Virus record (IMG/VR): IMGVR_UViG_3300025789_000004
Location: 1-59,551 of that record
From: a virus
Reading direction: 5' to 3' (one strand)
Length of the DNA stretch: 59,551 bases
Part shown: piece after piece, positions 6,743 through 59,065 of the stretch
Layout: each line of letters begins with the position of its first letter
Numbering within the stretch: position 1 is the first letter of the stretch
Notes under the pieces: generated by a model
Told to the model about the DNA's origin: nothing
Databases searched by the model: none
The model's input: only the letters and a program-made list of their open reading frames with translations
Translations under genes and position numbers: made by a program

Positions 6743-9700
6743 TTACTGCTGCGCCACCGCTACAACGTCCCAGAAGCTATCCTGCGAGTTGTATATACAT
6801 CCGACATACAAGACCTTGCTGATTACCGTGGTGGTGGGCAGCGCTACACCGACAGCGCGGTATGCACCTGATGTGGTAGTCCATGTAAGAGCCTGCGCTG
6901 TGCCGTTATCCTTGAAGCGGATTGTCAGACGCTGGCCATCAACCGGGGTGCCGGAAGGTGCGGCAATAGTAGCCGAGGCAGCAAGCGCCGTGACGTTATA
7001 TTGGTTGGTCGTCCCGGCAGTGGGCGTGATTGTGCTACCGCTGGTCGTCGCGATGGTCAGGGGCTGATACGAACCGTTGTGTACCAAAGCGCCGGGTGCG
7101 GCTGTTGAGCCGATGTTGATTGTAGTGGTGCTGCCCGATGCGCCGCCCGTACCGAGGTTGATTGTTTTTGTGTTGCCCGACGAAGTTGCGCCAGCCTGAA
7201 TATTTGTGGTCTGAGATACAAGAGACTGGCCAAATGTCAGGGTACCAGTGTGGTTAGTACCACCAATACTGATGGGGCCAGATGTGGTGGCGAGGCCGAT
7301 AGAAATGGTACCGACGGTTGAGCCGATCTGCAGGGTGGTACTGGTAAGTGATATTGAGAAGGAGCCTGCTGATGCGAGAAATGTCCCAGTAACATTTAGC
7401 GAGTCTGCTCCAACTGCGTATTTTTGCCCAGCAGTTACGTTTGTTCCCGCCAAGGGGGCCGTAAAGTACGTGCCGTAGAGGGTGTTGACCGTTACGCCGG
7501 TACTTGCCGCAGCGTAAGTCTGTGCCCCAAACGAGTTCATGTAGGCGGTATTGACTGTGCCAGATGTTCCAGTGCTAGTGTCTGTGAATGTGGCGGCGCT
7601 CTGGATCATATTGATCCCACTGGTATTCCATGCCGTGTAGCTGTTGGACGTCCCTGCCGCAATATTGATTGGACCGCCAACGGTCAGCTTGCGGGTCGCG
7701 GACGCAAACGTCAAGCTGCTACTTTCCGACATAACCGAGCCGGTATCAAACATGATCTGGCCCGCTGCGCCACCGCTGGTTGCGGTCGTGCCTACGGTGA
7801 GGGTGCCACCACCACCACCAGTCCCAAAGGGGCCAACAGTTGATCCATTGACCTGAGCATATACCCCCGCCGTCGTAGCCCAAATATCCCCGTTAACAGG
7901 GCTGGTGGGGGCAGTGCCGGGGGTTAGGTTGATGCTGGCAGCGGTTGTCGATGATGCCTGAAACGTGGTCTTTCCGGTCGTGGCAATGACAACCGCATCA
8001 GTTGTCCCGCTATTGACGACGAAGTGGATGGGGTTCGACGTGGCCGTGCCAAGCACCAGATCGCCACTGTTCGAGTACAGGTATACGGCGTTGGCAAGAT
8101 TCAGCGACCCGCTGCCGGTGAACCCGGAACTATTCATTCCGAAGTCGCCGTAGTAGGTCGTAGATGTCCCAAGGTTGTTCGACACAATGTGGTCAACGGA
8201 TGCTGCTGCGCCGTTGTTCGTGTTTTGCAAAATTGTCTGGACGTAGCTGTTGGTGGATAGCGTGTATGACGCAAAAATTCCCGTATCGCTATATCCTAGC
8301 GTGCCATAGCTATATGCACCGGCTGACAGCGCGGACAAGATCGAGCCGCTGGCGATGTAGAATGGGGATGACAGAGATGTCCCGCTGAAGGTAAAGTTTG
8401 AGGTGCTTGCGAGGGCGCTGGAGCCATTCCCATACGGGATGTAGCCAGATGCGAGAGACGTCAGGCCGGTCCCGCCATTTCCCACGGGTAGAGTGCCCGT
8501 GACGCCGGTCGAAAGGGGCAGGCCGGTCGCGTTGGTAAGGACAATGGCCGTCGGGGTGCCGAGGGCTGGAGTGACCAGCGTGGGGCTGTTGGACAGGACC
8601 ACGGAGCCCGTCCCGGTCGATGTCGTGACGCCAGTCCCTCCATTGGCTACAGCGAGAGTTCCGCCCAGCGTGAGGGTGCCCGAGGTGGTGATGGGGCCGC
8701 CAGTCAACGTCAGGCCCGTGGTCCCGCCAGAGCCACTGACACTAGTTACTGTGCCGGAGCCGGATACAGGAATCCACGACATGACACCGCCAGTGGTGGA
8801 CGACAGTACGTAGCCATTGCTGCTCGGAGCCGATGCAGGGAGCGTATAAGTCGTGGCCGCAGCACTCGCGCTGCCCTGCAGTGTCGTGGTCGTAGAGTTC
8901 GACGTGATGCCGATGGATGGGCTGGAAATGCTAGTTGGGGCTGTGACAACCCCATTCAGCGTAGTCGTGCTGGTGCCAGCCGCACTGCCAATGGCGATGG
9001 CTGTGGTGCTGCCCGATGTACCATTATTGCCGATGTTGACGGTTTTTGTATTTCCTGACGTTACAGCACCAGTGCTGATGTTTGTGGTGCTGTTGCCTGT
9101 GGAAATCCCGAGAGAGATGGCACCAGTGGTGCCAGATCCACCAATTGTGATCGTCTTGGTCGCCGCCCCGGAGAGCGCAAAGTTGCCTCCGAAGTTTACC
9201 GTCATAGCTCCCGAAACGGTACTGCCCAGATTGATGGTTCCGGTGGTCGCTGTGCCAAGAAGAAGGGCACCAGACGATGTCGAGCCTATCGTCATGTTGC
9301 CGATGCCGCACGAAATCGTGGTGTTGAATGACCCAGAGTTGGAGCTGAACACCCCGCCGTTCTGGATGAAAGTACCGTTGATTATCGCACTATCTGCACC
9401 GATTGCAGCCGGGTTGTTGACCGACACGAACGACCCAACGGCAGGTGCTTGGAAATAGGTTCCGTACAGGTAGCCGATCGAAACGGTACCTACACCGGTA
9501 GCATTTGCGGATGCGTATGTTTGCGTACCGAGCAGGTTCATGTACGCGGTTGTGATGTTCCCAGAAGCGGCAGTGGTTGTGTCTGTGAAAGTAGCCGGGG
9601 ACTGGATCAGGCTGATGCCGTTGGTGGACCAAGCTGGGGCAGAGGTAGCCGCGCCGCCAATGGTGACATTCCCCACTGCGGTGAGCTGCTTTGAGGTGTT

Positions 9701-11059
9701 GTTCCACGTCAGGGCGCTGCTTTCTTGCAGCACGGACCCCGAGTCGTACATGATCTGGCCCGCTGCGCCACCGCTCGTGGCTGTGGTGCCAACAATAAGT
9801 GTGCTTGGACCTGTTGCGCCAGTAGGCCCGGTCGGTCCGTTAGTTCCTGTAGGGCCGGTGGGGCCTGTCGGCCCATTAGTTCCTGCGGTTCCCGTAGGCC
9901 CGGTAGGCCCTGTGCTGCCTGCGGTTCCCGTAGGCCCGGTCGGCCCATTAGTTCCTGCGGTTCCCGTAGGCCCGGTAGGCCCTGTGCTGCCTGCAGTTCC
10001 CGTGGGGCCAGTAGGGCCGGTAGGTCCAGCAACGGTGGAGTTTGCACCCGTGGGACCAGTAGGTCCAGTAGGCCCCGTCGATCCGGTCGGACCAATGGGG
10101 CCAGAAAGATTGACGTTCCAGCTAGAAATCGTCCCAGTGCCAATAGTCGAAAAGACATTGACGTTCATAACGCCGCTGACGGCATTATAGCCCGTGACGA
10201 TGCCGAACATTTCGTATGAGGAACTGTATGCAATCGAGACAACCTGCCCGATTGTATAGGACAATCCGGTGCCTACGGTTAGCGTTTGCGACCCAGTTGC
10301 AATGGTCAGGCTGGTAGAACTAGTCGTAGCAAAAAGACTTCCCTGCGGACCCGTAGCGCCGGTTGGACCCGTAGGACCAACATTGCCAGTAGGTCCGGTG
10401 GGTCCCGCAATGCCAGTTGGGCCGGTAGGTCCATTGAAGCCGGTCGGTCCAGTGGGGCCATTTGCGCCAATAGGGCCAGTGGGTCCGGTAGGTCCAATAC
10501 CCGTAGGTCCAGTGGGTCCGGGCACACTCGATGCCGCGCCAGTGGGGCCAGTGGGTCCGATTGGGCCTACGGCACCATCAAGATTGATGGACCAAGATGC
10601 ATACGTACCAGATCCGCTGACCTCAAGGACGTTCACAACCATAACGCCAGTGGCGGAATTGTACGACACGATTGGGCCGGTCATCCAATTCGTTGCGCTG
10701 TTGGCGATGATTACCGACTGAGCAACCGTGTACGAAAGGCCGGTGCCGACCGTCAGGGTCTGTGTTCCGGTCGCAATTGTAAGCGTGCTGATACTGGTGG
10801 TCGGATACAGCGATCCCGAAGACCCCGTGGGTCCCGTCGGTCCAGTAGGGCCATTTGCGCCAGTTGGGCCGGTCATGCCAATAGGGCCAGTAGGGCCGGT
10901 GGGGCCAACGCTTCCAGTAGGTCCGGTCGGGCCAAGACCAAGAGCAGCAATCTGCGAAGTAGTAGCACGGGAAGACGTCCCGGCCTGCACGACTTCAATC
11001 AGTTCCGCCCCAGAGAGAGACGTTACAGCGGGAAGATTCGGAATCGTAGTATTAGACAT
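6743..11059 (-). CDS. Collagen-like tail fibre
   Basis: The protein has 1438 residues. It starts with a short anchor-like segment ([19 protein letters not shown]) that is repeated in the next small fibre gene. Three blocks of Gly-Pro-Thr triplets follow, separated by two related beta modules (SGSLYPTTS... and QGSLFATTS..., each ending in SW-x-V/I-NL). The distal half is Ser/Thr/Gly-rich with a second duplicated module beginning [13 protein letters not shown]. The last ~80 residues ([20 protein letters not shown] onward) resemble a trimeric tip. Collagen-type repeats form trimeric rods in phage fibres, so this is the likely main host-recognition fibre. Confidence 0.85.
9880..10010. repeat. 72-bp tandem repeat in the collagen-like region
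   Basis: A 72-base unit starting at 9880 restarts at 9952 and is identical for about 42 bases before diverging. It encodes 24 residues of Gly-x-x triplets. In-frame slippage here would lengthen or shorten the fibre rod without a frameshift. Confidence 0.75.
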
Positions 11060-23254: not shown

Positions 23255-26200
23255 TTACACAGGGTACAAGGGCGTTTCTTGCTTGTTGGGGTACGTCTTC
23301 ATGCCTTCAATTTCTTGGATGCGTTCGGCGGATCTGGTCAGCAGGCCAATATCTCGCAGGTGCCTGATCGACATAGACACAGTATCCACCAAGTCGTCAT
23401 GGCGGCCCTTTGGAAACTGACCGACTTGCGTGATCACTTCTTCGGTCCACTTCTTGTCCGGGGCGTAGATCATCCCTTCCGAGAACAAGTGCTGCACCGA
23501 ATACAGCCGCGCCATTTTGTCAAGACTTTTCGGATCCGACAACTGCACAGCAAACCCTTCATTGCCGTACAGCCTCCGCATTTCCTGCGCCACAGAGATC
23601 CCGCTGGCCTTGTTTTCAATCAGCAACTTGTCAACCTTCAGCGCCTTGCAGGTCTTGGCAACCTTCTCCACCAGATCATGGAACTCCAGCCGCTCGGTCC
23701 ATGCGTGCATCATCATGACCTTCGGCGCTGACTCATTGTACGCCCGGTCAATATACTGCGGTCGCCCATCCGCCCCAATCGTCCTGTGCGCCACGGCACT
23801 CGCATCTGTAGTGAATATGCCCCAGATTGTCATCGCAGATGGGTCATTGCTGGTTTTGGACGTATATGCCGTATCCAACGATGCCACAATGTAGTCCATC
23901 GGCGGAAAGGTCGAGTCCGGCCACAACTTCCACCAATCGCGCTTGATGATCCCACCGCCTGCAGGCTCAGGACGCTGCTGCAACTGTCCAGCCGCCATGA
24001 ACGGCCCCAATGCGCGCTCCAGCCGGGTTACTTCCTCATCGCCAAAACGATCAGGCCACAGCAAGTCACCCTCTTTCTCGCGTGGATCTTCCCAGCCAAT
24101 ACTGTTCTTGAACGCCCGATCAGCTTCATACCGCATTGGCAAACACAAGTGCGTCCAGCCAGCTGACTCTTTTTCCAGAATGTGCCCAGTCAAGTCATTC
24201 TCAGCCAATCTCTGCTGAATGACAATCATCGCCCCGGTCTTCTGATCGTTAAGACGGGTGGACATCGTGCCGTCCCACCACTCAATAGTCGATTCAATAG
24301 TTGCTTCAGAAAACGCTTCAGAGGCTGAGTTGGGGTCATCTACAATTATGCAGTTATGGGCAAGTACGCCATTAGCAAAGAAGTTGTGGCATTCTTCAAC
24401 TTGAATGTCATAGACTTTGTTCTTTGGACCGCTATATCGCTCAATTGAGCAGATGACATCATTTTGCCATGATGATGCAGGCGATGACACGATTCGCACA
24501 GCATTATCAAATTTTCCGGCACGTTGTTCCTGCTGTTCTCGTCTATGTGATGCGCGTGCAAAATTGATTTCTTTCGATTTCCGCGCTGCACCTTCTCGTC
24601 CACCAAACCACACGCCTGACAAGCGAACTCGTCCCGCTCCAAAACAATCACTCGCATATCCCGGAACTGGTTGGAATACCGGCCTAGTTTGGAAAAATTG
24701 GAATTGTGCGCACCCTTCATGCGATCCGAATGATCCGCATCCGCACAAGACGGACTGCAATAGATTGTCCAACCAGCAAATTGCGCTTTGCAACGCGGGC
24801 ATTCTTTTTTCTTGCGCTTGTCCCAACGTAATTTTTGATGGCACTCGTCCGAGCACACTTCGGAGTGCCTGTGCTTGCGCAGTTTTCCGCAAATTACACA
24901 CGCTTTTGTGTTTTTTGTGGAATGGTGTTGTGAGCAACATTTTTTTGAGCAGTATGCGTCCCGGCTTCCTTGTTTTAAGGCTTTGCGTGCCTCGTAAAGA
25001 TGCTTTTGCGTTTCTACCCCGCAGTTGTCGCATAGAAGGTTGACGATCATTTTCCGACCGTCTTTGAACAATAATCCCGTCTCCAATCCCCAATTCACAA
25101 GCTGGGACATATCCTGTCCCCTGCACGAAAATTGGATGGTCCCCAGTACACTCGACGGAAATTCCTGAAACCGTGCGTATTTCATAAAGGGTATCCGATT
25201 CAAGAAGGCGGGTTGCCAACACCCGTTTTTCTACCACCTTACCCCGTGAATGGTCAAACGATAATACTGTATCCCCTACAGAAACCTTGGAAATTGGTAC
25301 GTCTCCAAACGGCGTGGACACGTTAATCCATCCGGGAAAACATGATCCGCCTTCACCAGTCACTGCCGCACCAACTGAAGTAATCAGTCGTTCGCCACCT
25401 TGGTCATTACTAAAGCGTGACTTAGTATTCTGATCCGAATTGATCTTGAATCTTTCTCCCCACAACTTCTGGTACCATGGAGACTCAATCAATCGACGGC
25501 ATTTCACAGAGTCGCGCAACACCAACTGATTGGCATACGATGCGCAAAGAAACTGCACGCCCGGACCAGACGTCGGTGAGCGATGCTCTTGTGCCCATGT
25601 CCATGCGGGAAACGCCACAGATGTAATGGTTGAATTGTGCGTAGGGATGAGATTGCGGCCAATCAAATAAAGCCCATCTGGCGAATCTACTTGGATGCAA
25701 TGGCCAAAAAGCCCTTGCGGTTCAAGCGTCACGGACTTGAGGCCAATTGCTCGCTTAGGGGCAAATCGTTTAATTTGCTTGCGTGGAAGGGCAGTAGGAA
25801 TAGCCATTGTAGGCTGGAATGCTACTGTCCAGCATTCCTTTTTCCCTTGAATGCCTGACGTGCTCATCCGGGGCTGTGTGCTAGATACAACGGCGCGCCA
25901 CCCAAAGCTACGCACAAGCTCCGCAACGCCATCAATAATTTTCTTATTCGCATTGGAAAAATGGCACCTGTTATTCTTATCGACGCAGCCATCAGTGTCA
26001 ATCAAGCCAGCCAAAAGTTCAAGGCGTTGGCTTATGGTCCCCAAAAGATAGAGGTTTGGAATATGCTTGTCATTAAGCACGCCTGCCTCGCGCAAGCCGT
26101 TTTTGAGATTACTAGAAGCAAAGGACGTTGTGATTGCTCCAGTCCTTTTGTGTTCCCACGAGACACTGATGGAATACCCCAACGACACAATTTTGCTGAT

Positions 26201-26902
26201 GCACTCAGTATCTCGCGGGCTGTGGGTAATGCACGCCTTCCCCGACGATCCATCCCCTAGCCACGCGCCCAAGACGTAAGGATGGACAGGCAATTCAGCG
26301 CCCTTGTCAGGCATCTGCAAAGGCTCAACTAGCGGAAGTTGGTGCAACGCCCTACCCCCACTAGATGCAGCTTTGGGTTTCCCCTTTGTTTGCCCCCACC
26401 GGCCACGGCGGGGCTCCAAAAACTGCCGAGTCTCTACTGTTTCCCACAACCGGCTCATGCGATTGAACAGTGTCCATTCGTGATTTTCGTGGCAGTAGAA
26501 CACACTGCCATCAAAAAACTCAACGCGGACATTGGAAGGTGTCTTATCTGATACGGCAAGCACTTTGACTGGCTTACCAGATGGGTGAAACACAAAATCA
26601 CCTCGGGCCAAATCCCCGTGCGTTTTCCATCCTTCTGTAGTAAAAACTTCAGTGTTATCAGCTACTTGCTTGCCCATTCTGGGAGGAATGTTGATGATCA
26701 GCCGCCGTGTCTCTCCATCCACCACTGCCTGCAGATGTTCAGCCACTGCCTCAATTGGCCAACCATCTTTCCACGGGCTGGCGTCAATGTATTTCCAAGC
26801 ATTCACCAAGAAATAGTATAGGCTTTCTTCGCAGTCAGCACGATCAAGCGCTTCCAACTGCTTAATAGGATTAAGTAGTGATGGATCAAATTCTGTGTCC
26901 AT
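23255..26902 (-). CDS. terL: Terminase large subunit precursor with two inteins
   Basis: The open frame encodes 1215 residues, but only about 540 are terminase. Extein 1 (1-78) ends in IPPRMGK of Walker A. Intein 1 is residues 79-423; extein 2 (424-520) resumes with Ser and carries the ATPase core up to GEGGS. Intein 2 is 521-850; extein 3 (851-1215) starts CIIVDDP, the Walker B region, then the coupling motif IQQRLAENDL. The RNase H-type nuclease domain has ASLDTAY, LLIENKASG and RHDDLVDT. The spliced enzyme would cut concatemers and pump DNA through the portal. It starts at the ATG overlapping the terS stop (TAATG). Both inteins interrupt catalytic motifs, so activity should require splicing. 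Confidence 0.93.
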   Translation of the reverse strand: MDTEFDPSLLNPIKQLEALDRADCEESLYYFLVNAWKYIDASPWKDGWPIEAVAEHLQAVVDGETRRLIINIPPRMGKQVADNTEVFTTEGWKTHGDLARGDFVFHPSGKPVKVLAVSDKTPSNVRVEFFDGSVFYCHENHEWTLFNRMSRLWETVETRQFLEPRRGRWGQTKGKPKAASSGGRALHQLPLVEPLQMPDKGAELPVHPYVLGAWLGDGSSGKACITHSPRDTECISKIVSLGYSISVSWEHKRTGAITTSFASSNLKNGLREAGVLNDKHIPNLYLLGTISQRLELLAGLIDTDGCVDKNNRCHFSNANKKIIDGVAELVRSFGWRAVVSSTQPRMSTSGIQGKKECWTVAFQPTMAIPTALPRKQIKRFAPKRAIGLKSVTLEPQGLFGHCIQVDSPDGLYLIGRNLIPTHNSTITSVAFPAWTWAQEHRSPTSGPGVQFLCASYANQLVLRDSVKCRRLIESPWYQKLWGERFKINSDQNTKSRFSNDQGGERLITSVGAAVTGEGGSCFPGWINVSTPFGDVPISKVSVGDTVLSFDHSRGKVVEKRVLATRLLESDTLYEIRTVSGISVECTGDHPIFVQGTGYVPACELGIGDGIIVQRRSENDRQPSMRQLRGRNAKASLRGTQSLKTRKPGRILLKKMLLTTPFHKKHKSVCNLRKTAQAQALRSVLGRVPSKITLGQAQEKRMPALQSAICWLDNLLQSVLCGCGSFGSHEGCAQFQFFQTRPVFQPVPGYASDCFGAGRVRLSGVWFGGREGAARKSKEINFARASHRREQQEQRAGKFDNAVRIVSSPASSWQNDVICSIERYSGPKNKVYDIQVEECHNFFANGVLAHNCIIVDDPNSASEAFSEATIESTIEWWDGTMSTRLNDQKTGAMIVIQQRLAENDLTGHILEKESAGWTHLCLPMRYEADRAFKNSIGWEDPREKEGDLLWPDRFGDEEVTRLERALGPFMAAGQLQQRPEPAGGGIIKRDWWKLWPDSTFPPMDYIVASLDTAYTSKTSNDPSAMTIWGIFTTDASAVAHRTIGADGRPQYIDRAYNESAPKVMMMHAWTERLEFHDLVEKVAKTCKALKVDKLLIENKASGISVAQEMRRLYGNEGFAVQLSDPKSLDKMARLYSVQHLFSEGMIYAPDKKWTEEVITQVGQFPKGRHDDLVDTVSMSIRHLRDIGLLTRSAERIQEIEGMKTYPNKQETPLYPV
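24346..25050 (-). CDS. HNH endonuclease encoded out of frame inside intein 2
   Basis: The protein has 234 residues from the ATG at 25050 (M-I-V-N-L-L-C-D-N-C). Several Cys pairs follow (YCSKKCC, CVICGK, CPRCKAQF, YCSPSC), then an HNH core with CQACGLVDE, HAHHIDENSRNN and LCESCHRLHHHG. The last ~40 residues are read from DNA that also encodes the intein C-terminal block, and the frame stops seven bases past the intein. The frame differs from the terminase frame, which is open throughout. The ribosome site before the ATG is weak (CGGAAA). It may be translated independently or by frameshifting. The open frame extends upstream to 25203. Confidence 0.85.
   Translation of the reverse strand: MIVNLLCDNCGVETQKHLYEARKALKQGSRDAYCSKKCCSQHHSTKNTKACVICGKLRKHRHSEVCSDECHQKLRWDKRKKKECPRCKAQFAGWTIYCSPSCADADHSDRMKGAHNSNFSKLGRYSNQFRDMRVIVLERDEFACQACGLVDEKVQRGNRKKSILHAHHIDENSRNNVPENLIMLCESCHRLHHHGKMMSSAQLSDIAVQRTKSMTFKLKNATTSLLMAYLPITA
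24353..25342 (-). other. Intein 2 of TerL, inserted before Walker B
   Basis: Residues 521-850 of the precursor. It begins CFPGWINVSTPFGDVPI (block A), includes ECTGDHPIFVQGTGYV (block B, with the TxxH-type pair), and ends VYDIQVEECHNFFANGVLAH plus the terminal Asn before Cys (blocks F and G). The real splicing domain is about 97 + 40 residues, a normal mini-intein size. The 194 residues between (24470-25051) read as unrelated low-meaning sequence, because another frame there encodes an HNH endonuclease. Confidence 0.9.
25634..26668 (-). other. Intein 1 of TerL with LAGLIDADG endonuclease, inserted in Walker A
   Basis: Residues 79-423 of the precursor, splitting the P-loop between Lys and Ser. 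The N-terminal residue is Gln (QVADNTEVFTTEGW), a less common but known class of intein start. The homing endonuclease motifs are YVLGAWLGDG (near residue 210) and LLAGLIDTDG (near 296). The C-terminus LIPTHN followed by Ser is a standard block G. The single-frame layout with a dodecapeptide endonuclease is classical. Confidence 0.92.
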
Positions 26903-30643: not shown

Positions 30644-31096
30644 ATGACATCCCATCCCATGACACCACAAGAACTTTGCGAACTGATGGACCGCCTCTCA
30701 CTTAGGGCGGTGGATGTGGCATGGATGAGCGGCTACGGAATGCGCCAGATCGGCAACTGGATGAGCGGACATTCTCCAGTCCCCCAAACCGTCCGCTTGC
30801 TTCTGACTGCCATGCGCCAAGGGCATCTGTCTCCGCATTGGTTCGTTCGCAATGTGGGATCACCAGTCCCATACAGCCGCGGCACCTACGTCGCCCAACG
30901 CCAGCACCCACCCACTGCCAAAACGCGCCTGCCCAAAAGAACCGGACCCAAACCCCCACGCAAGCGCTACAAGCCAGTCCCCAAAGCGCCCACCGAACCC
31001 AAACCACCCCGCAAGCGCCAAAAGCCATGGTCCGTTCACCTAAACCGCCGCAAGCGCAACCGCAGCACCAAAGACAGCCCGAACCAGACCCCATAA
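30644..31096 (+). CDS. Small helix-turn-helix protein with basic Pro-rich tail
   Basis: The protein has 150 residues. Residues 6-60 look like a helix-turn-helix: MTPQELCELMDRLSLRAVDV, then AWMSGYGMRQIGNWMSGHSP. From residue 90 it is a Pro/Lys/Arg-rich disordered tail (TGPKPPRKRYKPVPKAPTEP). Such a fusion suggests a DNA-binding protein with an extra basic arm. It ends about 100 bases before the iteron array, so a role at the origin is possible but not shown. Confidence 0.65.
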   Translation: MTSHPMTPQELCELMDRLSLRAVDVAWMSGYGMRQIGNWMSGHSPVPQTVRLLLTAMRQGHLSPHWFVRNVGSPVPYSRGTYVAQRQHPPTAKTRLPKRTGPKPPRKRYKPVPKAPTEPKPPRKRQKPWSVHLNRRKRNRSTKDSPNQTP

Positions 31097-31487
31097 CCCC
31101 CAAACAAGGCCGCCCACAGCCTCAAAAGGCTCAAAAACCACCCTAAAACACCCCAAAACCCAGCATTTCCAATGCCTTAGCACCCTAAAAAACTGGATAG
31201 TCTAGATAGTAACTGGATAGTCAAATTTTGCTATCCAGATCTCTTTGAAAAACAAAGATAAAAGACTAGATAGTCTAGATAGTTATATATATATATATAT
31301 TCTCTCTGTGGATAAGTCCCCAAACAGTGCATTAGACTATCAGTATATCTACCTATCCAGATGTCTATATATCTGTCTCTATCTAGAAAATCGTACTATC
31401 TAGACTATCTAGTTTTTTTCCCTTTGATTTCAACGACATCTGGATAGTAACTGGATAGTAAACCGTACTATCTAGACTATCTAGTTT
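31097..31487. other. Candidate replication origin: iterons, AT tract, DnaA box
   Basis: This 391-base gap lies between convergent genes. From 31193 it holds at least twelve copies of a 9-mer, CTAGATAGT or CTGGATAGT, in both orientations. Tandem pairs are at 31266-31283, 31395-31412 and 31467-31484; others are at 31193, 31202, 31213, 31440 and 31451. The centre is an alternating AT run (31283-31300) followed directly by a perfect DnaA box. A 25-base segment ending in ACTATCTAGTTTTT is duplicated near 31390 and 31463. This is the usual anatomy of an iteron origin with an unwinding element. Confidence 0.75.
31307..31315 (-). promoter_or_regulatory. DnaA box in the origin region
   Basis: TGTGGATAA is the complement of the consensus DnaA box TTATCCACA, with no mismatch. 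It lies seven bases after the AT run, a sensible spacing for helping strand opening. Confidence 0.75.
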
Positions 31488-33761
31488 TTACGCCTTGCGG
31501 ATGTGGGTGTACTGCTTGCCATTGCGGGGAATGGTGCGCTCAGTGCGTTCAATGCGGCCTGATTGGACCAGCGCGTCCAAGGCGGCGGCGATATCGTCCT
31601 TCTTGTACTTGCGCAGTTTGTTGGAAAGCACGCCAACGCTGATGCCATCATCGCTGCACAGGTTTTCGATCTTGGCTTGCAGCGCGCTCATGGGGGCGTC
31701 TTTCTGGTGATCGTTGGAGATGACCAGCCGCGCCTTTTCTTCGATGTCCCTGCGCACCAATGCAAACGCCCAGCGGACATGCTCAGCGGTGCGGATACCA
31801 CCGCTTAGGGCCAACACGAGGCTTGCCTTGCTCAAGGCTTCATATGCCCGCAGATAAAGCGCTTCGAGGCCGTGGCGCTCCTTCTGAAGATCCGCTTGTT
31901 CGTCAAACCAGTCTGCGGCCTTGGCAAGCATCTCCAATGCCTTTGGCTCTGTGGGGATCTTGCTCTTTTCGCCGTAGTATTCCACGCGGGTTGCCTGTGT
32001 GTCATAGGACCCGCCATAATACATGGCCTGCAAAGCGCTCTCGATCTCACGAGGCAGCGGGGGTGCCGCAAAGTTGCGCTTGCTCTTGGGGGCAGTGTCG
32101 CGTTCGTTGAACAACAGACTGCGGCCAATGAACCCATTGGTGGCGCTGGCATGATCCACCAGACCATCGAACGTCTCGGGCGTGGTGAAACCCAGCAGGC
32201 TAAGGAATGGACGCTCAAGACCCTTATCGAGATTGTTCAACTGCCCTTGCAGAGTGGTCCGGCGATGCTTCAGGCTATCGTTGTCGCCATCTTCATCTGC
32301 CTTGCGGTTAAGCTGGGCCATATCTTGTATGAGCGCTTTCTTAAGTTCCTCCTTGGCATCGCCTGTGACAAGCAACCAGCCATTCCCCTTGGAGTAAACC
32401 GACATCAAAGTAGCAATCACACCCTCCAGATAGATTGCTCCACCCTTCTGGGATGCTGATTTCAGCTTTTGCAGAAAGATCCCCACTTCGTCGATCACAT
32501 AGAACGCCGCTTGGTGCCGGGTCAGGTTGCGGAATATTTCGGAATCCGACTTGATGGCACCATGGGTTGCGCCAGAGATCCCGGCAGCGCGATGCAATGT
32601 GCCGACCGCTTGCTGAACGGCTTCCTTGCCGGTACCGGATCCAGCGATGCAAAAGCAAAACAGGTTTGCCGTCACACCGTCTTTGTCATCGGTGTATCGC
32701 AAACCAGCAATATTGCCGATTGCCGTAAGGGCAGCAGCGGTTGCAAGTGTGGCACGGGGACGGCGGCATTGGCTTTCGATCCAGCGGGCTACATCACCGA
32801 CAAAACCCGGTGGGGATTTGAGGTCGCATCCGGCGATGTCAAAAGGCAGGCCGTCAACTGGCGATTCAATCTCGGCAACAACCTCCACGCCCTCAGGAAC
32901 AAAGCTAACCGGCATCACCCAGCCGTGTTGCTCGGCATGATAGATCAGTGTGCCAATGGTGACAGGGTTTGCGGCGCGACCGAAGCTATGCCAGCGGTTC
33001 GCCATAAGGGTTGCATCATGCTTGCCAGATTGGGCGCTCCAATGGTCCCACAGATCGTAGCCGGTGCCGCCTGTCGCTTGATGGATTGCCATGCCGACCT
33101 TGACCCAATCATCATAGGGCAGATCGTCATTCGGGATATGCTGAAGCATCGTGGCAATTTCGGCCTGCGATACGTCCAGACTGATGCCGTTGTATTCCGT
33201 GCGGTGCCGTTCCGGCTTGCGCAGGATCGCCAGCAATGCATCTGGCGCAGGGGCGATGTCATTGGGCGCACCGTCCGCTGTCGAATAGCGGTTGCCAGAC
33301 AAATGCATGGAACCGGGGCCGACAACAAAACGGCTGCCCGATTGGAAATCGATGCCACGATATTCCGGGAGATGCGACAGCAAGGCCACATCATTTGGTG
33401 CGGTGAAATAGTAGTGGCGAGATCCCTTGCCGGAACCTGTATCGACGACCAGACCAGCTCCCGCAATCTCCGGGATGTCGATCAGCAGCTTTGACAGGCT
33501 TTCTACGCCACCATTGCGGGCATCGACATCGACAACCAGCAGGCCACGGCACAAGACGCCGTAACCAGTGTCAAAGAATTCCGCATCCTCCATGGTGTCC
33601 AACTGCTCGACATCCCAATGGGGCGTGTTCTGCCAGTTCGAGATGCGGGGGTGCTTGCCTTTCGCTTCGCAATCAGGCTTGCCGCATTCACAAGCATTCG
33701 GATTAAACCGCCACAACGGAAAAATCCGAAAGCCAGCATCATAGAAATCACGGTAAAGCAT
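31488..33761 (-). CDS. Primase-polymerase / helicase fusion (Prim-Pol, PriCT, DUF3987-type)
   Basis: The protein has 757 residues. The N-terminal Prim-Pol domain has FRIFPLW, a Cys cluster (CECGKPDC), the metal-binding VVDVDARNGG (Asp 78 and 80) and SRHYYF. A PriCT-2 type domain follows (near 200-280: MLQHIPNDDLPYDDWVKVGM). The C-terminal P-loop ATPase has GSGTGKE at 374-380 and FYVIDEVGIF as Walker B. Such proteins prime and unwind at the phage origin; the iteron array lies directly after its stop. With no phage DNA polymerase seen, elongation probably uses the host polymerase. Confidence 0.85.
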   Translation of the reverse strand: MLYRDFYDAGFRIFPLWRFNPNACECGKPDCEAKGKHPRISNWQNTPHWDVEQLDTMEDAEFFDTGYGVLCRGLLVVDVDARNGGVESLSKLLIDIPEIAGAGLVVDTGSGKGSRHYYFTAPNDVALLSHLPEYRGIDFQSGSRFVVGPGSMHLSGNRYSTADGAPNDIAPAPDALLAILRKPERHRTEYNGISLDVSQAEIATMLQHIPNDDLPYDDWVKVGMAIHQATGGTGYDLWDHWSAQSGKHDATLMANRWHSFGRAANPVTIGTLIYHAEQHGWVMPVSFVPEGVEVVAEIESPVDGLPFDIAGCDLKSPPGFVGDVARWIESQCRRPRATLATAAALTAIGNIAGLRYTDDKDGVTANLFCFCIAGSGTGKEAVQQAVGTLHRAAGISGATHGAIKSDSEIFRNLTRHQAAFYVIDEVGIFLQKLKSASQKGGAIYLEGVIATLMSVYSKGNGWLLVTGDAKEELKKALIQDMAQLNRKADEDGDNDSLKHRRTTLQGQLNNLDKGLERPFLSLLGFTTPETFDGLVDHASATNGFIGRSLLFNERDTAPKSKRNFAAPPLPREIESALQAMYYGGSYDTQATRVEYYGEKSKIPTEPKALEMLAKAADWFDEQADLQKERHGLEALYLRAYEALSKASLVLALSGGIRTAEHVRWAFALVRRDIEEKARLVISNDHQKDAPMSALQAKIENLCSDDGISVGVLSNKLRKYKKDDIAAALDALVQSGRIERTERTIPRNGKQYTHIRKA

Positions 33762-37854: not shown

Positions 37855-37937
37855 TCCCTCCTGCCCTACGCCAATGGCTGTGGGATAATTTCGGGTGGGA
37901 CATATACGATTGGAACGATGGGGATTTGAGGTTTTGA
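37851..37937 (+). CDS. Trp-rich microprotein, copy 1
   Basis: The protein has 28 residues and starts in an ATGA overlap with the exonuclease stop. The core is LRQWLWDNFGW, then a Tyr-Asp-Trp stretch and an acidic stretch ending DLRF. Five of 28 residues are Trp or in Trp pairs. Its last codons contain GAGG, which serves as the ribosome site for the helicase at 37939. A second copy at 43057-43140 keeps the protein sequence while changing many third codon positions, strong evidence that it is a real gene. No known family is recognised. Confidence 0.8.
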   Translation: MIPPALRQWLWDNFGWDIYDWNDGDLRF

Positions 37938-37938
37938 T

Positions 37939-39744
37939 ATGTCATTCCAATTGCGTCCATACCAGCACGGGGCGGTTGACGCCGCCCTAGACTGGATGCG
38001 GCGGAGCATTGAGCCATGCCTGATTGATGCCGCACCTGCAGCGGGCAAGTCCTTTATGATTGCCGCCATTGCCTCGGAACTTCACCGGATCAGTGGCGGC
38101 AAGAGGATCTTGTGCATTGCCCCCAGCGCAGAACTGGTCAAGCAGAACGCCGAAAAATACAAATTTACTGGCGAGAAGTGCAGCATCTTCAGCGCAAGCG
38201 CGGGTGCAAAATCCGTCAAAAATGTGGTCGTGTTCGGCACTCCTGTCACGGTCAAAAATTCCATTGAAAAGTTCAAGAGAGACTATGCGGCTATAATAAT
38301 CGATGAATGCCATGGGCTGACCCCAACCATCAGGGGCATCATTGATGAAATGCGATCAACCCAGCCGAACCTGCGCGTTTTGGGCTTGTCTGGCACACCC
38401 TACCGCATGGGAAGCGGGTACATCTTCCATATGTGGCCAGATGGCCGATCCAATGGTGACGACACCACGCGGGATCCGTACTTTGTGAAATGCGTCTACC
38501 GCGTGTCGGCACGGGAAATGCTGGATCAGGGGTTCATTACCCCTATGGAAATCGGCAAGCCCGGTTCCAGTGGATATGACACCAGTGGCATCGAACTGCT
38601 GCCAAATGGAACCTTGAACCACGAGACCGTCGAGCGGGCATTCATGGGCCATGGCAGGCTTACGGCACAGATCGTTGCGGATGTCATTAACCAATCGCGC
38701 AGCCGTCCGGGTGGCGTCATGTACTTTGCCGCGACCATTGCGCACGCCAAGGAGGTGCTTGCCAGCCTTCCTGCAGAGAACTCCGCATTGGTGACGGGCG
38801 ATATGCCGACCAAGGAGCGTGATGCTATCATTCAGCGCTATCGTAATCAGAAGATCCGGCATCTTGTGAATGTGGGTACGTTAACCACCGGCTTTGACGT
38901 TAGCCATACCGAGACAATTGCTTTGTTACGTTACACTGAATCCGCCTCTCTGCTTCAGCAGATCATGGGCAGAGCGTGGCGCTTGCATCCGGGTAAGGAT
39001 ACGTCCCTGCTGCTGGACTATGCGAATAACATAGAGGAGCATATGCCAGATGGGGATCTGTACAACCCTGAAATCCGCGCAGGCAAGGCCAGTAAGAGTG
39101 AGCGGATTGACGCGGAATGCCCGGATTGCGGCAATATCAATCAGTTTTCATTGAATGCGGATTACAAGCATTATCAATATGATAAGCATGGATATTGCAT
39201 AGATGAGTTTGGCCTTCCTTTGATCAGCGAACACGGACCTGTCGCGCGGCACTTTGGCAGGCGTTGCTTTGGCATGGTCCGAACTGGGGATAAGGGGGAA
39301 TACGACAGGTGTGGATACTACTGGACGCACAAGGAATGCCTGCAGTGCTCTGAGAAGAATGACGTCACAGCAAGGCATTGCAGGTCTTGTAAGGCTGAGT
39401 TGATCGACCCCAACAAGAAACTGGTGTCCTTCGCGGAATACAAGAAAAACCCCAAGGCCAAGCAATGCGATATTGTCCTGTCCATGAAGGTAAGGGATAG
39501 TACGTCAAACAGAGGCAATAAGACCAAGCGGGTTGATTTTGTCACACCGTATCGCAAGTTCAGCGTGTGGTTTCTACCAGATGCCAGATATGACAAGGGC
39601 ATCAAGGATTGGCAGAAGTTCTGCCATTACACTGATGGCGGATCGCACGCGCCTCATACGATCATGTATCAGAAGGACGAGTCCGGATACTTCAAGATCT
39701 TGGGCTACGACATTCCGCCAGATGACGAGGGGAATACCAAGTGA
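37939..39744 (+). CDS. Superfamily 2 DNA helicase with C-terminal zinc fingers
   Basis: The protein has 601 residues. Motif I is APAAGKSF (near 34), motif II IIIDECHGL (near 117), motif III LSGTPYRMG, and motif VI IMGRAWRLHPGKD. The C-terminal third has Cys pairs (CPDCGNIN; CLQCSEKN with CRSCKAEL) for zinc. It resembles SSL2/RecG-like phage helicases encoded beside YqaJ and VRR-NUC nucleases. Role: unwinding or branch processing in replication and recombination. Confidence 0.87.
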   Translation: MSFQLRPYQHGAVDAALDWMRRSIEPCLIDAAPAAGKSFMIAAIASELHRISGGKRILCIAPSAELVKQNAEKYKFTGEKCSIFSASAGAKSVKNVVVFGTPVTVKNSIEKFKRDYAAIIIDECHGLTPTIRGIIDEMRSTQPNLRVLGLSGTPYRMGSGYIFHMWPDGRSNGDDTTRDPYFVKCVYRVSAREMLDQGFITPMEIGKPGSSGYDTSGIELLPNGTLNHETVERAFMGHGRLTAQIVADVINQSRSRPGGVMYFAATIAHAKEVLASLPAENSALVTGDMPTKERDAIIQRYRNQKIRHLVNVGTLTTGFDVSHTETIALLRYTESASLLQQIMGRAWRLHPGKDTSLLLDYANNIEEHMPDGDLYNPEIRAGKASKSERIDAECPDCGNINQFSLNADYKHYQYDKHGYCIDEFGLPLISEHGPVARHFGRRCFGMVRTGDKGEYDRCGYYWTHKECLQCSEKNDVTARHCRSCKAELIDPNKKLVSFAEYKKNPKAKQCDIVLSMKVRDSTSNRGNKTKRVDFVTPYRKFSVWFLPDARYDKGIKDWQKFCHYTDGGSHAPHTIMYQKDESGYFKILGYDIPPDDEGNTK

Positions 39745-40400: not shown

Positions 40401-40409
40401 TGTGGATAA
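40401..40409 (-). promoter_or_regulatory. DnaA box upstream of the DnaA-domain gene group
   Basis: TGTGGATAA, a perfect complement of TTATCCACA, lies 12 bases after the palindrome and 35 bases before the start at 40444. It may allow autoregulation by the phage DnaA-domain protein or by host DnaA. Confidence 0.65.
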
Positions 40410-40443: not shown

Positions 40444-40722
40444 ATGAACGATGAATTGGAATTTGCAGAGAAGATCCTGTCTGGCCGCTGGAGGCTGAAT
40501 GACCGCGTGGCCAAGGAGAGGGAATGGAAAGATGCCGCGCAAGGAGCGGTTGATGGCGATGTTTCTGAACTTGACCGTCTTCTGGATCTCGACGCGCTTT
40601 TCGATTTCTACCTTGACGAACCCCAGAGCGGAGAATGGGACTACACATTCAAAGATTGGGTAGAGGAGCAGGGCGGCTTCAAGGTGGCTGCAGCCCGTTA
40701 TTTGGAGTGGCATTCAAAGTGA
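40444..40722 (+). CDS. Small acidic protein, function unknown
   Basis: The protein has 92 residues, acidic and helical: MNDELEFAEKILSGRWRLND, then a Leu/Asp-rich middle (LDRLLDLDALFDFYLDEP) and an aromatic end. It is translationally coupled (GTGA) to the DnaA-domain gene and could be its partner. No family is known. Confidence 0.65.
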   Translation: MNDELEFAEKILSGRWRLNDRVAKEREWKDAAQGAVDGDVSELDRLLDLDALFDFYLDEPQSGEWDYTFKDWVEEQGGFKVAAARYLEWHSK

Positions 40723-41192
40723 GATTGAGGGTTATTGACATCATTCGCCATGCGGTAAGGGTTACTCGCATTCCCCAAGAGGCTTTGATTGGCCAATCTC
40801 GCTTGATGGATTATGTGTGGGTTCGGAAAGCTATTGTAATGGTGGCGCGCGAACAAGGGTATTCCTATCCAGACATTGGTCGCCTCATGGGCAAAAGGCA
40901 TCATACTACAATCATGCATGCCGACCGTTGCGCCAAGAAAATGGTAAAGGACGATGATCGTTTCGCCCGCCTTGTGGAAGAACTTCGGCGGTCTGAGCCA
41001 GAGTTCACTACGGAGAAGCGGACCATAGCAATTCCCCGCGCGAAGGAGCCAATTAGCGATGATTTGGTTGTTGTACGTATTCGTCCTGACGCTGATCCAG
41101 AAGAAAACTTAGGTCGCGATACGGACGCCATGCAGCGCAAGATTGGAAGTGATAGGCTATTGAATGCCCTATTGGCAGCGAGGTCGGCATGA
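40719..41192 (+). CDS. DnaA domain IV-like DNA-binding protein
   Basis: The protein has 157 residues from a GTG overlapping the previous stop. Residues 30-75 match DnaA domain IV: VWVRKAIVMVAREQGYSYPD, then IGRLMGKRHHTTIMHADR, which holds the His-Thr-Thr that reads the DnaA box. It lacks the DnaA AAA+ domain. The C-terminal 70 residues are basic and unassigned. Two perfect DnaA boxes lie in this genome, one in the iteron region and one just upstream of this gene group. It could recruit or block the host initiator. Confidence 0.87.
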   Translation: MRLRVIDIIRHAVRVTRIPQEALIGQSRLMDYVWVRKAIVMVAREQGYSYPDIGRLMGKRHHTTIMHADRCAKKMVKDDDRFARLVEELRRSEPEFTTEKRTIAIPRAKEPISDDLVVVRIRPDADPEENLGRDTDAMQRKIGSDRLLNALLAARSA

Positions 41193-43060: not shown

Positions 43061-43140
43061 GCCCCGCCCTCCGGCAATGGTTGTGGGATAATTTCGGCTG
43101 GGACGTATACGACTGGGCCGATGAAGATCTGAGGTTTTGA
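43057..43140 (+). CDS. Trp-rich microprotein, copy 2
   Basis: The protein has 27 residues from a GTG in a GTGA overlap. The core LRQWLWDNFGWD is the same as in copy 1 (37851-37937), and the C-terminus DLRF is kept. Changes are Ile to Val, Asn to Ala and Gly to Glu, plus many synonymous third-position changes. The trailing bases GAGGTTTTGATATG are identical to those after copy 1 and provide the ribosome site and start of the next gene. Confidence 0.8.
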   Translation: MSPALRQWLWDNFGWDVYDWADEDLRF

Positions 43141-43141
43141 T

Positions 43142-43405
43142 ATGGAAGATGATGCAATCCCCCAGTGGGCGCTGGACGAGGCCGTGAAGCGGCTGAATGT
43201 TGGCCGAACCCTTCATTACAACTGCGATATGCACAGCACACAAGTACTCGCCCGCATGATCGCGAAGCATGAGAATCCGCCAGTCGATTCTGACGAGGAG
43301 GCGGTGAATCGGATACTCAGGGCGGCTTTTCCGCGCGGCGTGATTTATTCTGAAGATAAAGCCCGCGCCCTCGCCCAATACAAGAAGGAGATTGGCCGTG
43401 GTTGA
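43142..43405 (+). CDS. Small protein, function unknown
   Basis: The protein has 87 residues, reading EDDAIPQWALDEAVKRLNVG at the start, then a helical middle (STQVLARMIAKHENPPVDSD) and a basic end. Its ribosome site lies in the Trp-rich microgene. No family is recognised. Confidence 0.65.
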   Translation: MEDDAIPQWALDEAVKRLNVGRTLHYNCDMHSTQVLARMIAKHENPPVDSDEEAVNRILRAAFPRGVIYSEDKARALAQYKKEIGRG

Positions 43406-45692: not shown

Positions 45693-46340
45693 GTGGACTA
45701 CACAAAGCACTACGAAAATTTGGTCAGTAGGGCTATTGGACGTACCTTGGTTGGGTATAGCGAGCGCCACCACATCCTGCCTAAGTGCATGGGGGGAGGG
45801 GACGAGGGCAGCAATCTAGTTAGCCTTACTCCGAGGGAGCACTTCTTCGCCCACCAGCTGCTCCTAAAAATGTACCCGAACGTCAGGGGTCTGGCATACG
45901 CCGCGATGCTGATGTCGGGAAAGTCCGCCTACAGCAAGGGGTCCAGAAGGTATGGCTGGCTGAGAGAAAGGTACCGAGAAACGGGAAGGTCAAAAGAGCA
46001 CTGCGAGAACATATCGAAAGCAAAGATGGGCAAGGTAACAGAGGCTATGCGCAGGCCAAAGTCGGAAGAGCATAAGGCTGCATTGCGGAGGCCAAAGAGC
46101 CCGGAACATATCGCCAAGATAAAAAAGCTTGCCTGCACTCCTGAGGGCAGGGCAGTTAGGTCAGCGAACTCGAGGGGGAGGACAATCAGTGCCGAGCAAA
46201 AAGCCAAGCAATCGAAGGCAATGAAGGGGAGGCCCGGGCCCAGAAAAGGTATCCCCATGTCTGAAGAGGCAAAAATAAAACTATCAAATTCACAAAAAGA
46301 AAGACTAGCTAAGAGAAAGAGAGAGCAATGTCCTCTATAA
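45693..46340 (+). CDS. HNH homing endonuclease with NUMOD repeats
   Basis: The protein has 215 residues from a GTG. The HNH core is ERHHILPKCMGGGDEGSNLV with EHFFAHQLL. The C-terminal half has at least four NUMOD3-type DNA-binding repeats (SKEHCENISKAKMGK, SEEHKAALRRPKSPEHIAKI, SAEQKAKQSKAMKGRPG, SEEAKIKLSNSQKER). It is more AT-rich than the flanking genes. It sits exactly between a truncated and an intact copy of one membrane-protein gene. Confidence 0.9.
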   Translation: MDYTKHYENLVSRAIGRTLVGYSERHHILPKCMGGGDEGSNLVSLTPREHFFAHQLLLKMYPNVRGLAYAAMLMSGKSAYSKGSRRYGWLRERYRETGRSKEHCENISKAKMGKVTEAMRRPKSEEHKAALRRPKSPEHIAKIKKLACTPEGRAVRSANSRGRTISAEQKAKQSKAMKGRPGPRKGIPMSEEAKIKLSNSQKERLAKRKREQCPL

Positions 46341-58618: not shown

Positions 58619-59065
58619 TTACTTCTCCTTTACTTCAACAAAAGAAGTAATACTCTTTCTACGAGACCAATTTTCTTTGGCTTTTCTTGAAAGCAAGGCA
58701 ATAGTTTCTTCAGAGGCCACGCGGCCCTTCATGCGCTCACTATTCTGCCGCTTCCATTCTTCCGTATGCTTTCTGCCAGATGGCCCTTCTCCGCCATCGG
58801 TCAGGTTTGCCAGATCCGCGCCATCCGCGCGCCAAAAGGCAATGCGCTCACGCTCCAAGTCGAATGCTTGGCTCTCGGAAAGATCGGTCTCTACCAGACG
58901 GACTACGACGCATAGACCCGCTTTGGCCAGCTTTTGCTGAATGAACTTGTGAAAGCGATTGCGCTGACGCATGTCATTCGCCCGCTTGCTCTTACCTTTA
59001 CCTACGTAAAAGCATTCGTCCCTATCGGGCCTCCAATGCTCATACACGTAGAAAAGGTCGCCCAT
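58619..59065 (-). CDS. GIY-YIG homing endonuclease
   Basis: The protein has 148 residues. The GIY-YIG core appears as FYVYEHWRPD and CFYVGKGKSKRAN, with the conserved Arg and a Glu in LERERIAFWRADG. The C-terminus has a NUMOD3-type DNA-binding repeat (GRKHTEEWKRQNSERMKGR). It sits between the GNAT gene and the giant virion gene, with AT-richer composition than both, and probably arrived as a mobile endonuclease. Confidence 0.9.
   Translation of the reverse strand: MGDLFYVYEHWRPDRDECFYVGKGKSKRANDMRQRNRFHKFIQQKLAKAGLCVVVRLVETDLSESQAFDLERERIAFWRADGADLANLTDGGEGPSGRKHTEEWKRQNSERMKGRVASEETIALLSRKAKENWSRRKSITSFVEVKEK

Follow-up and report, generated by a model that had tools for sequence, protein, structure and literature searches.

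An iteron array beside a phage primase-helicase gene as a probable replication origin

Introduction

Initiators that have their own iteron origin beside their gene are already known, and the origin of SaPIbov1 consists of two iteron sets flanking an AT-rich region. In the available excerpts of PMC7581432, SaPI Rep is a helicase initiator with a C-terminal DNA-binding domain, and its short-iteron origin lies directly downstream of its gene. ORF904 of pRN1 combines Prim-Pol, AAA+ helicase and C-terminal winged helix and has its essential origin just 3' of the gene, and P4 alpha unites primase, helicase and winged-helix binding of origin repeats in one protein, as described in the available excerpts of PMC4234260. 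The same excerpts give a stem-loop without iterons as the origin of pRN1 and of its proposed counterpart in phages BPP-1 and BIP-1; the stem-loop was proposed in BIP-1, a near-identical sister of BPP-1. In NrS-1 PrimPol, a Prim-Pol from a phage is joined to a hexameric helicase; the protein recognises a site of 8 nt, of which the genome has only two copies, and a winged helix is not reported in the available excerpts (PMC7102993, PMC8718748). Excerpts of PMC5862659, PMC7145576 and PMC10803314 provide further background to the mechanism proposed below. A family-wide iteron origin for phage proteins of the Prim-Pol/PriCT_2/DUF3987/winged-helix type was not found described in the open-licence literature.

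The window analysed here, a virus record of 59,551 nt, is a complete phage genome whose first and last 127 bases are identical. It carries an iteron array next to a primase-helicase gene, and this array is probably the replication origin of the phage and the adjacent primase-helicase its initiator, a reading drawn from sequence comparison and based on the recurrence of arrays beside the primase-helicase gene across phages. As in SaPI Rep/ori and SCCmec Cch2, so far as the excerpts describe them, the iteron origin would lie directly beside the initiator gene, here 3 bp from the stop codon, and the counterpart of the C-terminal dsDNA-binding domain of SaPI Rep would be a predicted winged helix. 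The helicase of SaPI Rep and Cch2 belongs to DUF927 or D5/Primase_Cterm, whereas that of the window is DUF3987 by Pfam, with neither DUF927 nor D5/Primase_Cterm, and the window protein is therefore not classed as a SaPI Rep. Unlike SaPI, the window protein has a fused Prim-Pol and PriCT_2, the genome is that of a tailed phage and not of a satellite, the iterons vary widely within the lineage, and there is a large palindrome. The domain order of pRN1 ORF904 is matched by Prim-Pol, AAA+ helicase and predicted C-terminal winged helix, but the pRN1 origin is a stem-loop without iterons, whereas the palindrome of the window is built of iterons. P4 alpha likewise has primase, helicase and winged helix (predicted here) in one protein, although its primase, as excerpted, is of the Toprim type and that of the window is a Prim-Pol (AEP). 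NrS-1 PrimPol shares the fusion of Prim-Pol and helicase.

Results

The iteron array and its palindrome

All 11 exact copies of CTRGATAGT in the window lie inside 31193-31484, in both orientations, against a chance mean of 0.43, and 0 of 100 dinucleotide shuffles reach 11. Three more copies (31230, 31352 and 31378, all on the minus strand) differ in the last base, giving a total of 14, so that the count of at least twelve 9-mers CT(A/G)GATAGT in both orientations given by the first-pass annotation holds with mismatches and fails for exact copies. The exact tandem pairs and the alternation of A-type and G-type iterons in blocks that it described are both present: four pairs have exact 9-bp spacing (31193/31202, 31266/31275, 31395/31404 and 31467/31476), and the types follow one another as G,A,G / A,A / A,A / G,G / A,A. 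The unit duplicated on the right, previously given as 25 bases, extends over 41 nt at 88% (31384-31424 and 31456-31496), of which 26 nt are identical by eye, and the AT run, previously given as 18 bases, measures 17 nt. The perfect DnaA box is confirmed and reads TGTGGATAA. The array lies between two convergent gene ends (30644-31096, plus strand, and 31488-33761, minus strand) and hence not at a promoter (Table 1).

The exact word CTRGATAGTCTRGATAGT was searched in viral contigs and found in 25 stretches, 24 of which have one match; the only real array is in L032, where the stretch is 100% identical, and the other matches were taken for chance.

The whole array is one near-palindrome, a feature absent from the first-pass annotation. 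Its arms are inverted copies of each other at about 79% with gaps, spacers included. As ssDNA, the array fragment has a folding energy of -55.9 kcal/mol, where shuffles give -22.3 (sd 3.1; z -11); the inverted iterons account for part of this strong folding, but the spacers match too.

Table 1. Features of the iteron array and of the adjoining gene, in window coordinates.
Feature	Position	Strand	Remark
Iteron array / proposed origin	31193..31484	.	11 exact CTRGATAGT + 3 one-mismatch
Left arm of large imperfect inverted repeat	31188..31283	.	partner 31395-31489
Left block: CTGGATAGT (31193), CTAGATAGT (31202), CTGGATAGT (31213)	31193..31221	+	
One-mismatch iteron CTGGATAGC	31230..31238	-	
A-type iteron tandem pair adjoining TA run	31266..31283	+	
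Alternating TA run, 17 nt, then TCTCTCT; proposed DNA unwinding element	31284..31300	.	
Perfect DnaA box TTATCCACA	31307..31315	-	not conserved in relatives
One-mismatch iteron CTGGATAGG	31352..31360	-	
One-mismatch iteron CTAGATAGA	31378..31386	-	
Right arm of large imperfect inverted repeat	31395..31489	.	partner 31188-31283
A-type iteron tandem pair, reversed	31395..31412	-	
G-type iterons x2 (31440, 31451)	31440..31459	+	
A-type iteron tandem pair, reversed; 3 bp from primase stop codon	31467..31484	-	
Primase-helicase, 757 aa, proposed initiator	31488..33761	-	Prim-Pol aa 7-174, PriCT_2 203-276, DUF3987 AAA+ match 515-670, winged helix
C-terminal winged-helix domain aa 690-757, proposed iteron-binding domain	31491..31694	-	predicted structure

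The primase-helicase and its predicted winged helix

The first-pass annotation saw no obvious Rep initiator, a statement that is not supported given the adjacent Prim-Pol/helicase with its predicted winged helix, a gene tied to arrays across phages. Of the two candidates it listed, the Prim-Pol is retained and the 30644-31096 protein is not: searches of 50,697 phage records, PHROGs and Pfam gave no match to this protein, which was therefore rejected as a conserved initiator and cannot explain a family-wide array.

The primase-helicase matches Pfam Prim-Pol (E 6e-24), PriCT_2 (4e-19) and DUF3987 (7e-8), and matches phrog_3022 (DNA primase) over its full length (E 6.1e-149, aa 5-750 against positions 7-780 of the 788 in the profile). 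In an AlphaFold2 model of mean pLDDT 87.6, the C-terminus comprises helices 690-701, 709-715 and 721-734, followed by a beta hairpin 737-756; modelled alone, this domain has a pLDDT of 83.3 and aligns with winged-helix folds at a best Z of 10.8 (rmsd 1.1 over 62 residues), and in Foldseek with winged helices at an E of 2.5e-3 at best. The P4 origin-binding domain (1KA8) is absent among the fold matches listed for the winged helix, and a profile search of A2 against PDB sequences gave no match at 0.1. For the model as a whole, the matches are the Prim-Pol of pRN1 and of NrS-1 and AAA+ rings of the MCM type, with a Foldseek match of the Prim-Pol domain to pRN1 1ro0 at E 1.1e-4. Judged by the fold of the model, the helicase would be MCM-like AAA+, and an SF3 assignment lacks support.

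Genes for Sak4, SSB, a RecE-like exonuclease and a DNA helicase lie on the other side of the primase gene, and no credible DNA polymerase match was obtained among the subset of ORFs scanned in the genome. Eight plasmid records match the primase-helicase, none over 80% of its length, and so no plasmid replicon of this type was found for comparison.

Arrays recur behind the primase gene in relatives

The comparison was preceded by an observation in Pseudoalteromonas phage H103, whose primase gene is followed by a GATAGT array. A set of relatives was assembled from the best 80 of 514 viral-contig matches, three genome-contig loci and six phage records; with the window's own protein it comprised 89 proteins, which formed 69 clusters at 90% identity, 66 of them with enough downstream sequence. 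Only L119-L121 were used of 80 genome-contig loci, most others matching the N-terminal part only, and L067, L070, L071, L090 and L055 were left out for having too little downstream sequence. The 400-bp tile immediately downstream of the stop codon received a score for any 8-mer recurring on either strand with no more than one mismatch; controls were tiles taken from other parts of the same loci.

In the window, the array tile scores 15.2 against 2.4 for the best of 169 other tiles in the genome and is the sole such cluster. Among the de-duplicated loci, a score of at least 4 is reached behind the primase gene in 16 of 66, against 21 of 3056 control tiles (Fisher p 2e-18), and this tile is the top of its locus in 20 of 66, where 1.7 are expected. 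The enrichment persists in AT-rich tiles only (GC below 0.46; 13/45 against 3/384) and without the hypothesis-forming loci, where 14 of the 57 remaining loci and 20 of 2398 control tiles carry a strong array (p 2.4e-15). Of the 66 tiles downstream of the primase gene, 20 have an alternating TA run of 8 nt or more, against 11 of 3056 controls (9 of 471 AT-rich controls); without the hypothesis-forming loci, an alternating TA run is present in 18/57 against 7/2398. Folding is strong (z below -4) for 12 of the 66 downstream tiles and for 3 of 90 AT-rich controls. The proposal of a candidate replication origin in the first-pass annotation is thus supported by comparative evidence.

The repeat words vary among phages and the layout persists. 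At least two sites on each strand are found in 20 of 23 arrays, and at least two tandem neighbours 7-11 bp apart in 17 of 23; three arrays (L073, L084 and L093), all without tandem pairs, are probably false. The iteron word is CAGAATAG in L043, L046 and L048, ACAAATAG in L054, CAGAAATA in L065, AGATAGTC in L049, GGACATAG in L044, GGATATNC in L102 and L106, CGATATAG in L099, GTAGATAG in L072, GTGTAAAC-like in L104 and L094, and GTAGTGGG in L118. Several arrays, along with that of the window, have forward copies near the gene, a pair at the TA tract and reversed copies beyond. Weighing against the origin reading, scores below 2 were obtained for 43 of 66 downstream tiles, 10 of these having a TA run only and the rest neither feature, and no clear array was found in MW202675, DDSR119, ZX7, P400 or BPP-1, the last scanned behind its primase gene.

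High-scoring control tiles in L041, L072, L095 and L075 proved to be codon-scale tandem repeats and not arrays. The high-scoring control tile of L121 coincides with the iteron array of that locus: this Candidatus Methylopumilus MAG contig has at 7800-8150 a dense GATAGT array, a TA tract and a perfect DnaA box, downstream of the primase gene and separated from it by one small ORF. The word TTTGAAATCA, seen by eye in several arrays, was considered as a second shared word and is not enriched; TGTTAGCG/CGCTAACA is a second shared word enriched behind the primase gene (8/66 tiles against 12/1539 controls).

Four of 7 more distant cultured phages carry a scoring array 5' of the primase gene: Vibrio 1.174 (9.8), E. 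coli Sa179lw (8.4, CTATTTGC), phiHSIC (5.9) and MAG7 (4.2), these scores being the best tiles of the locus and the weaker ones to be taken cautiously. VnaS-L3 has a weak array (2.4), and scans of the primase locus found none in P400 and ZX7. Given its place on the other flank in phiHSIC, Vibrio 1.174, Sa179lw and MAG7, the array appears to track the gene and not a 3' end, and its persistence beside the gene despite the change of flank speaks for array and gene being functionally paired.

Iteron words co-vary with the winged helix

Across 28 loci, a partly hand-picked set from which L073, L084, L074 and L093 were taken out and to which L057, L061 and L060 were added, iteron distance correlates with winged-helix distance once helicase and Prim-Pol are removed (partial r 0.27-0.30, p 0.0005), and the distance of helicase or Prim-Pol, given the winged helix, shows no correlation with it. 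A rerun without hand selection and with four other segments removed gave a winged-helix partial r of 0.17-0.19 (p 0.023-0.052), no other protein segment reaching 0.05, and control motifs from non-scoring tiles showed no correlation. This modest co-variation supports the winged helix as the putative iteron reader, and since the winged-helix codons adjoin the array, linked recombination could give the same co-variation.

GC skew, DnaA boxes and other features of the genome

GC skew, proposed earlier as a check, fails to point at the array. Cumulative GC skew is lowest near 36 kb, yet its course reflects gene direction, and in a GC3 skew model with a strand term 31.34 kb ranks 39th of 119 positions, the best lying near 9 or 39 kb. 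The DnaA box was rejected as a key feature, as it is not conserved in relatives: a perfect box is present in 2 of the 66 downstream tiles against 2 of 1539 controls, and a box with at most one mismatch in 6 of 66 against 113 of 1539, with no enrichment. The array holds one perfect box and not the cluster of a DnaA-dependent, oriC-type origin.

Elsewhere in the genome, 40635-41192 encodes a 185-aa phage protein with DnaA domain IV (Bac_DnaA_C, E 2.4e-12) and no AAA+ part; it carries an HTTIMHA motif, presumably the DnaA signature, and a perfect DnaA box (40401-40409) lies upstream of its gene. The terminase large subunit gene (23255-26902, 1215 aa) appears to hold an intein, since it matches terminase at its two ends and has Intein_splicing, Hint and homing-endonuclease domains in between, and three further HNH/homing-endonuclease-like ORFs are present at 918-1397, 45693-46340 and 58619-59065. 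Both copies of an 82-bp repeat of 85% identity (37860-37941 and 43063-43144) run up to the start codon of a plus-strand ORF; they might represent a common leader or promoter, or else the duplicated end of a gene. In the gene for the tail fibre, GGGCCTAC occurs seven times at 9822-10075, probably as codon-level repeats of a collagen-like stretch.

Discussion

The favoured mechanism is modelled on SaPI Rep, Cch2, P4 alpha and pRN1 ORF904, for which such a scheme is either established or a proposal. In it, the C-terminal winged helix would bind the 9-bp iterons, pairwise and on both sides, and AAA+ helicase rings would assemble on the oppositely oriented iteron sets, between which the TA/TCTCT tract would melt. 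The helicase would then travel outward, the Prim-Pol/PriCT_2 domains would prime, and a host polymerase, proposed because no DNA polymerase was recognised among the ORFs scanned, would extend the primers.

The array could instead be an origin whose iterons are read by another factor, be it host DnaA, the DnaA-domain-IV-like protein of 40635-41192 or an unrecognised phage protein, with the primase-helicase loading second. The perfect DnaA box within the array, the three such boxes in the genome where 0.29 are expected, the phage protein with its Bac_DnaA_C match (E 2.4e-12) and HTTIMHA, and a perfect box about 100 nt before the array of L121 are all consistent with this arrangement, which we nevertheless consider unlikely: one-mismatch boxes are not enriched in relatives, the DnaA-domain protein occurs in only 6 of 50,697 phage records, and no other gene is tied to the arrays among the neighbours tested. 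It is very improbable that the repeats are single-stranded template sites for Prim-Pol/PriCT_2 priming, like NrS-1 PrimPol on TTTGGTTA, and not double-stranded binding sites. The tandem and inverted copies are too many for the needs of a priming site and iteron change tracks the winged helix, not Prim-Pol or PriCT, even though NrS-1 and pRN1 Prim-Pol are structural matches and the 8-nt recognition site of NrS-1 is, in the excerpts available, maybe its origin (PMC7102993, PMC8718748).

If the repeats were operators of a transcription regulator, or terminated transcription in both directions between the convergent genes, this would account for the terminator-like stem that inverted iterons give at 31213-31238 and for the small basic HTH-like protein encoded next door. 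A promoter is, however, not expected between convergent ends, the two promoter-like matches are at chance level (mean 1.0), the HTH-like neighbour has no relatives found, and the family-wide TA tract would be left unexplained, all of which makes such a role highly doubtful. Packaging sites, partition centromeres and recombination sites can also be repeat arrays, and the end of the terminase gene is 4.3 kb away; but the H103 array adjoins the primase gene at about 2.3 kb from the terminase gene and partition genes are absent from the matches for the ORFs scanned, and a function of this kind is scarcely credible.

With the array read as an origin and the primase-helicase as its initiator, a tentative extension, which we hold to be possible but doubtful, is that winged helix and iteron word form a replication specificity unit and diversify together, and that the iteron arms of the palindrome link pRN1-type stem-loop and SaPI-type iteron origins as two states of one design. 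If this is true, phages infecting the same cell would leave each other's origins silent even where their primase-helicases are nearly identical. The proposed origin would also qualify the suggestion, made in the available excerpts of PMC4234260, that initiators built of Prim-Pol, helicase and winged helix work at stem-loops and not at iterons. The origins of most metagenome-only phages remain to be located, and a sequence rule is offered for them, to look beside the phrog_3022-type primase-helicase gene, with cultured phages listed for testing it. The family would provide winged helices that are naturally matched to a variety of 8-9 bp words, in which origin specificity is directly testable.
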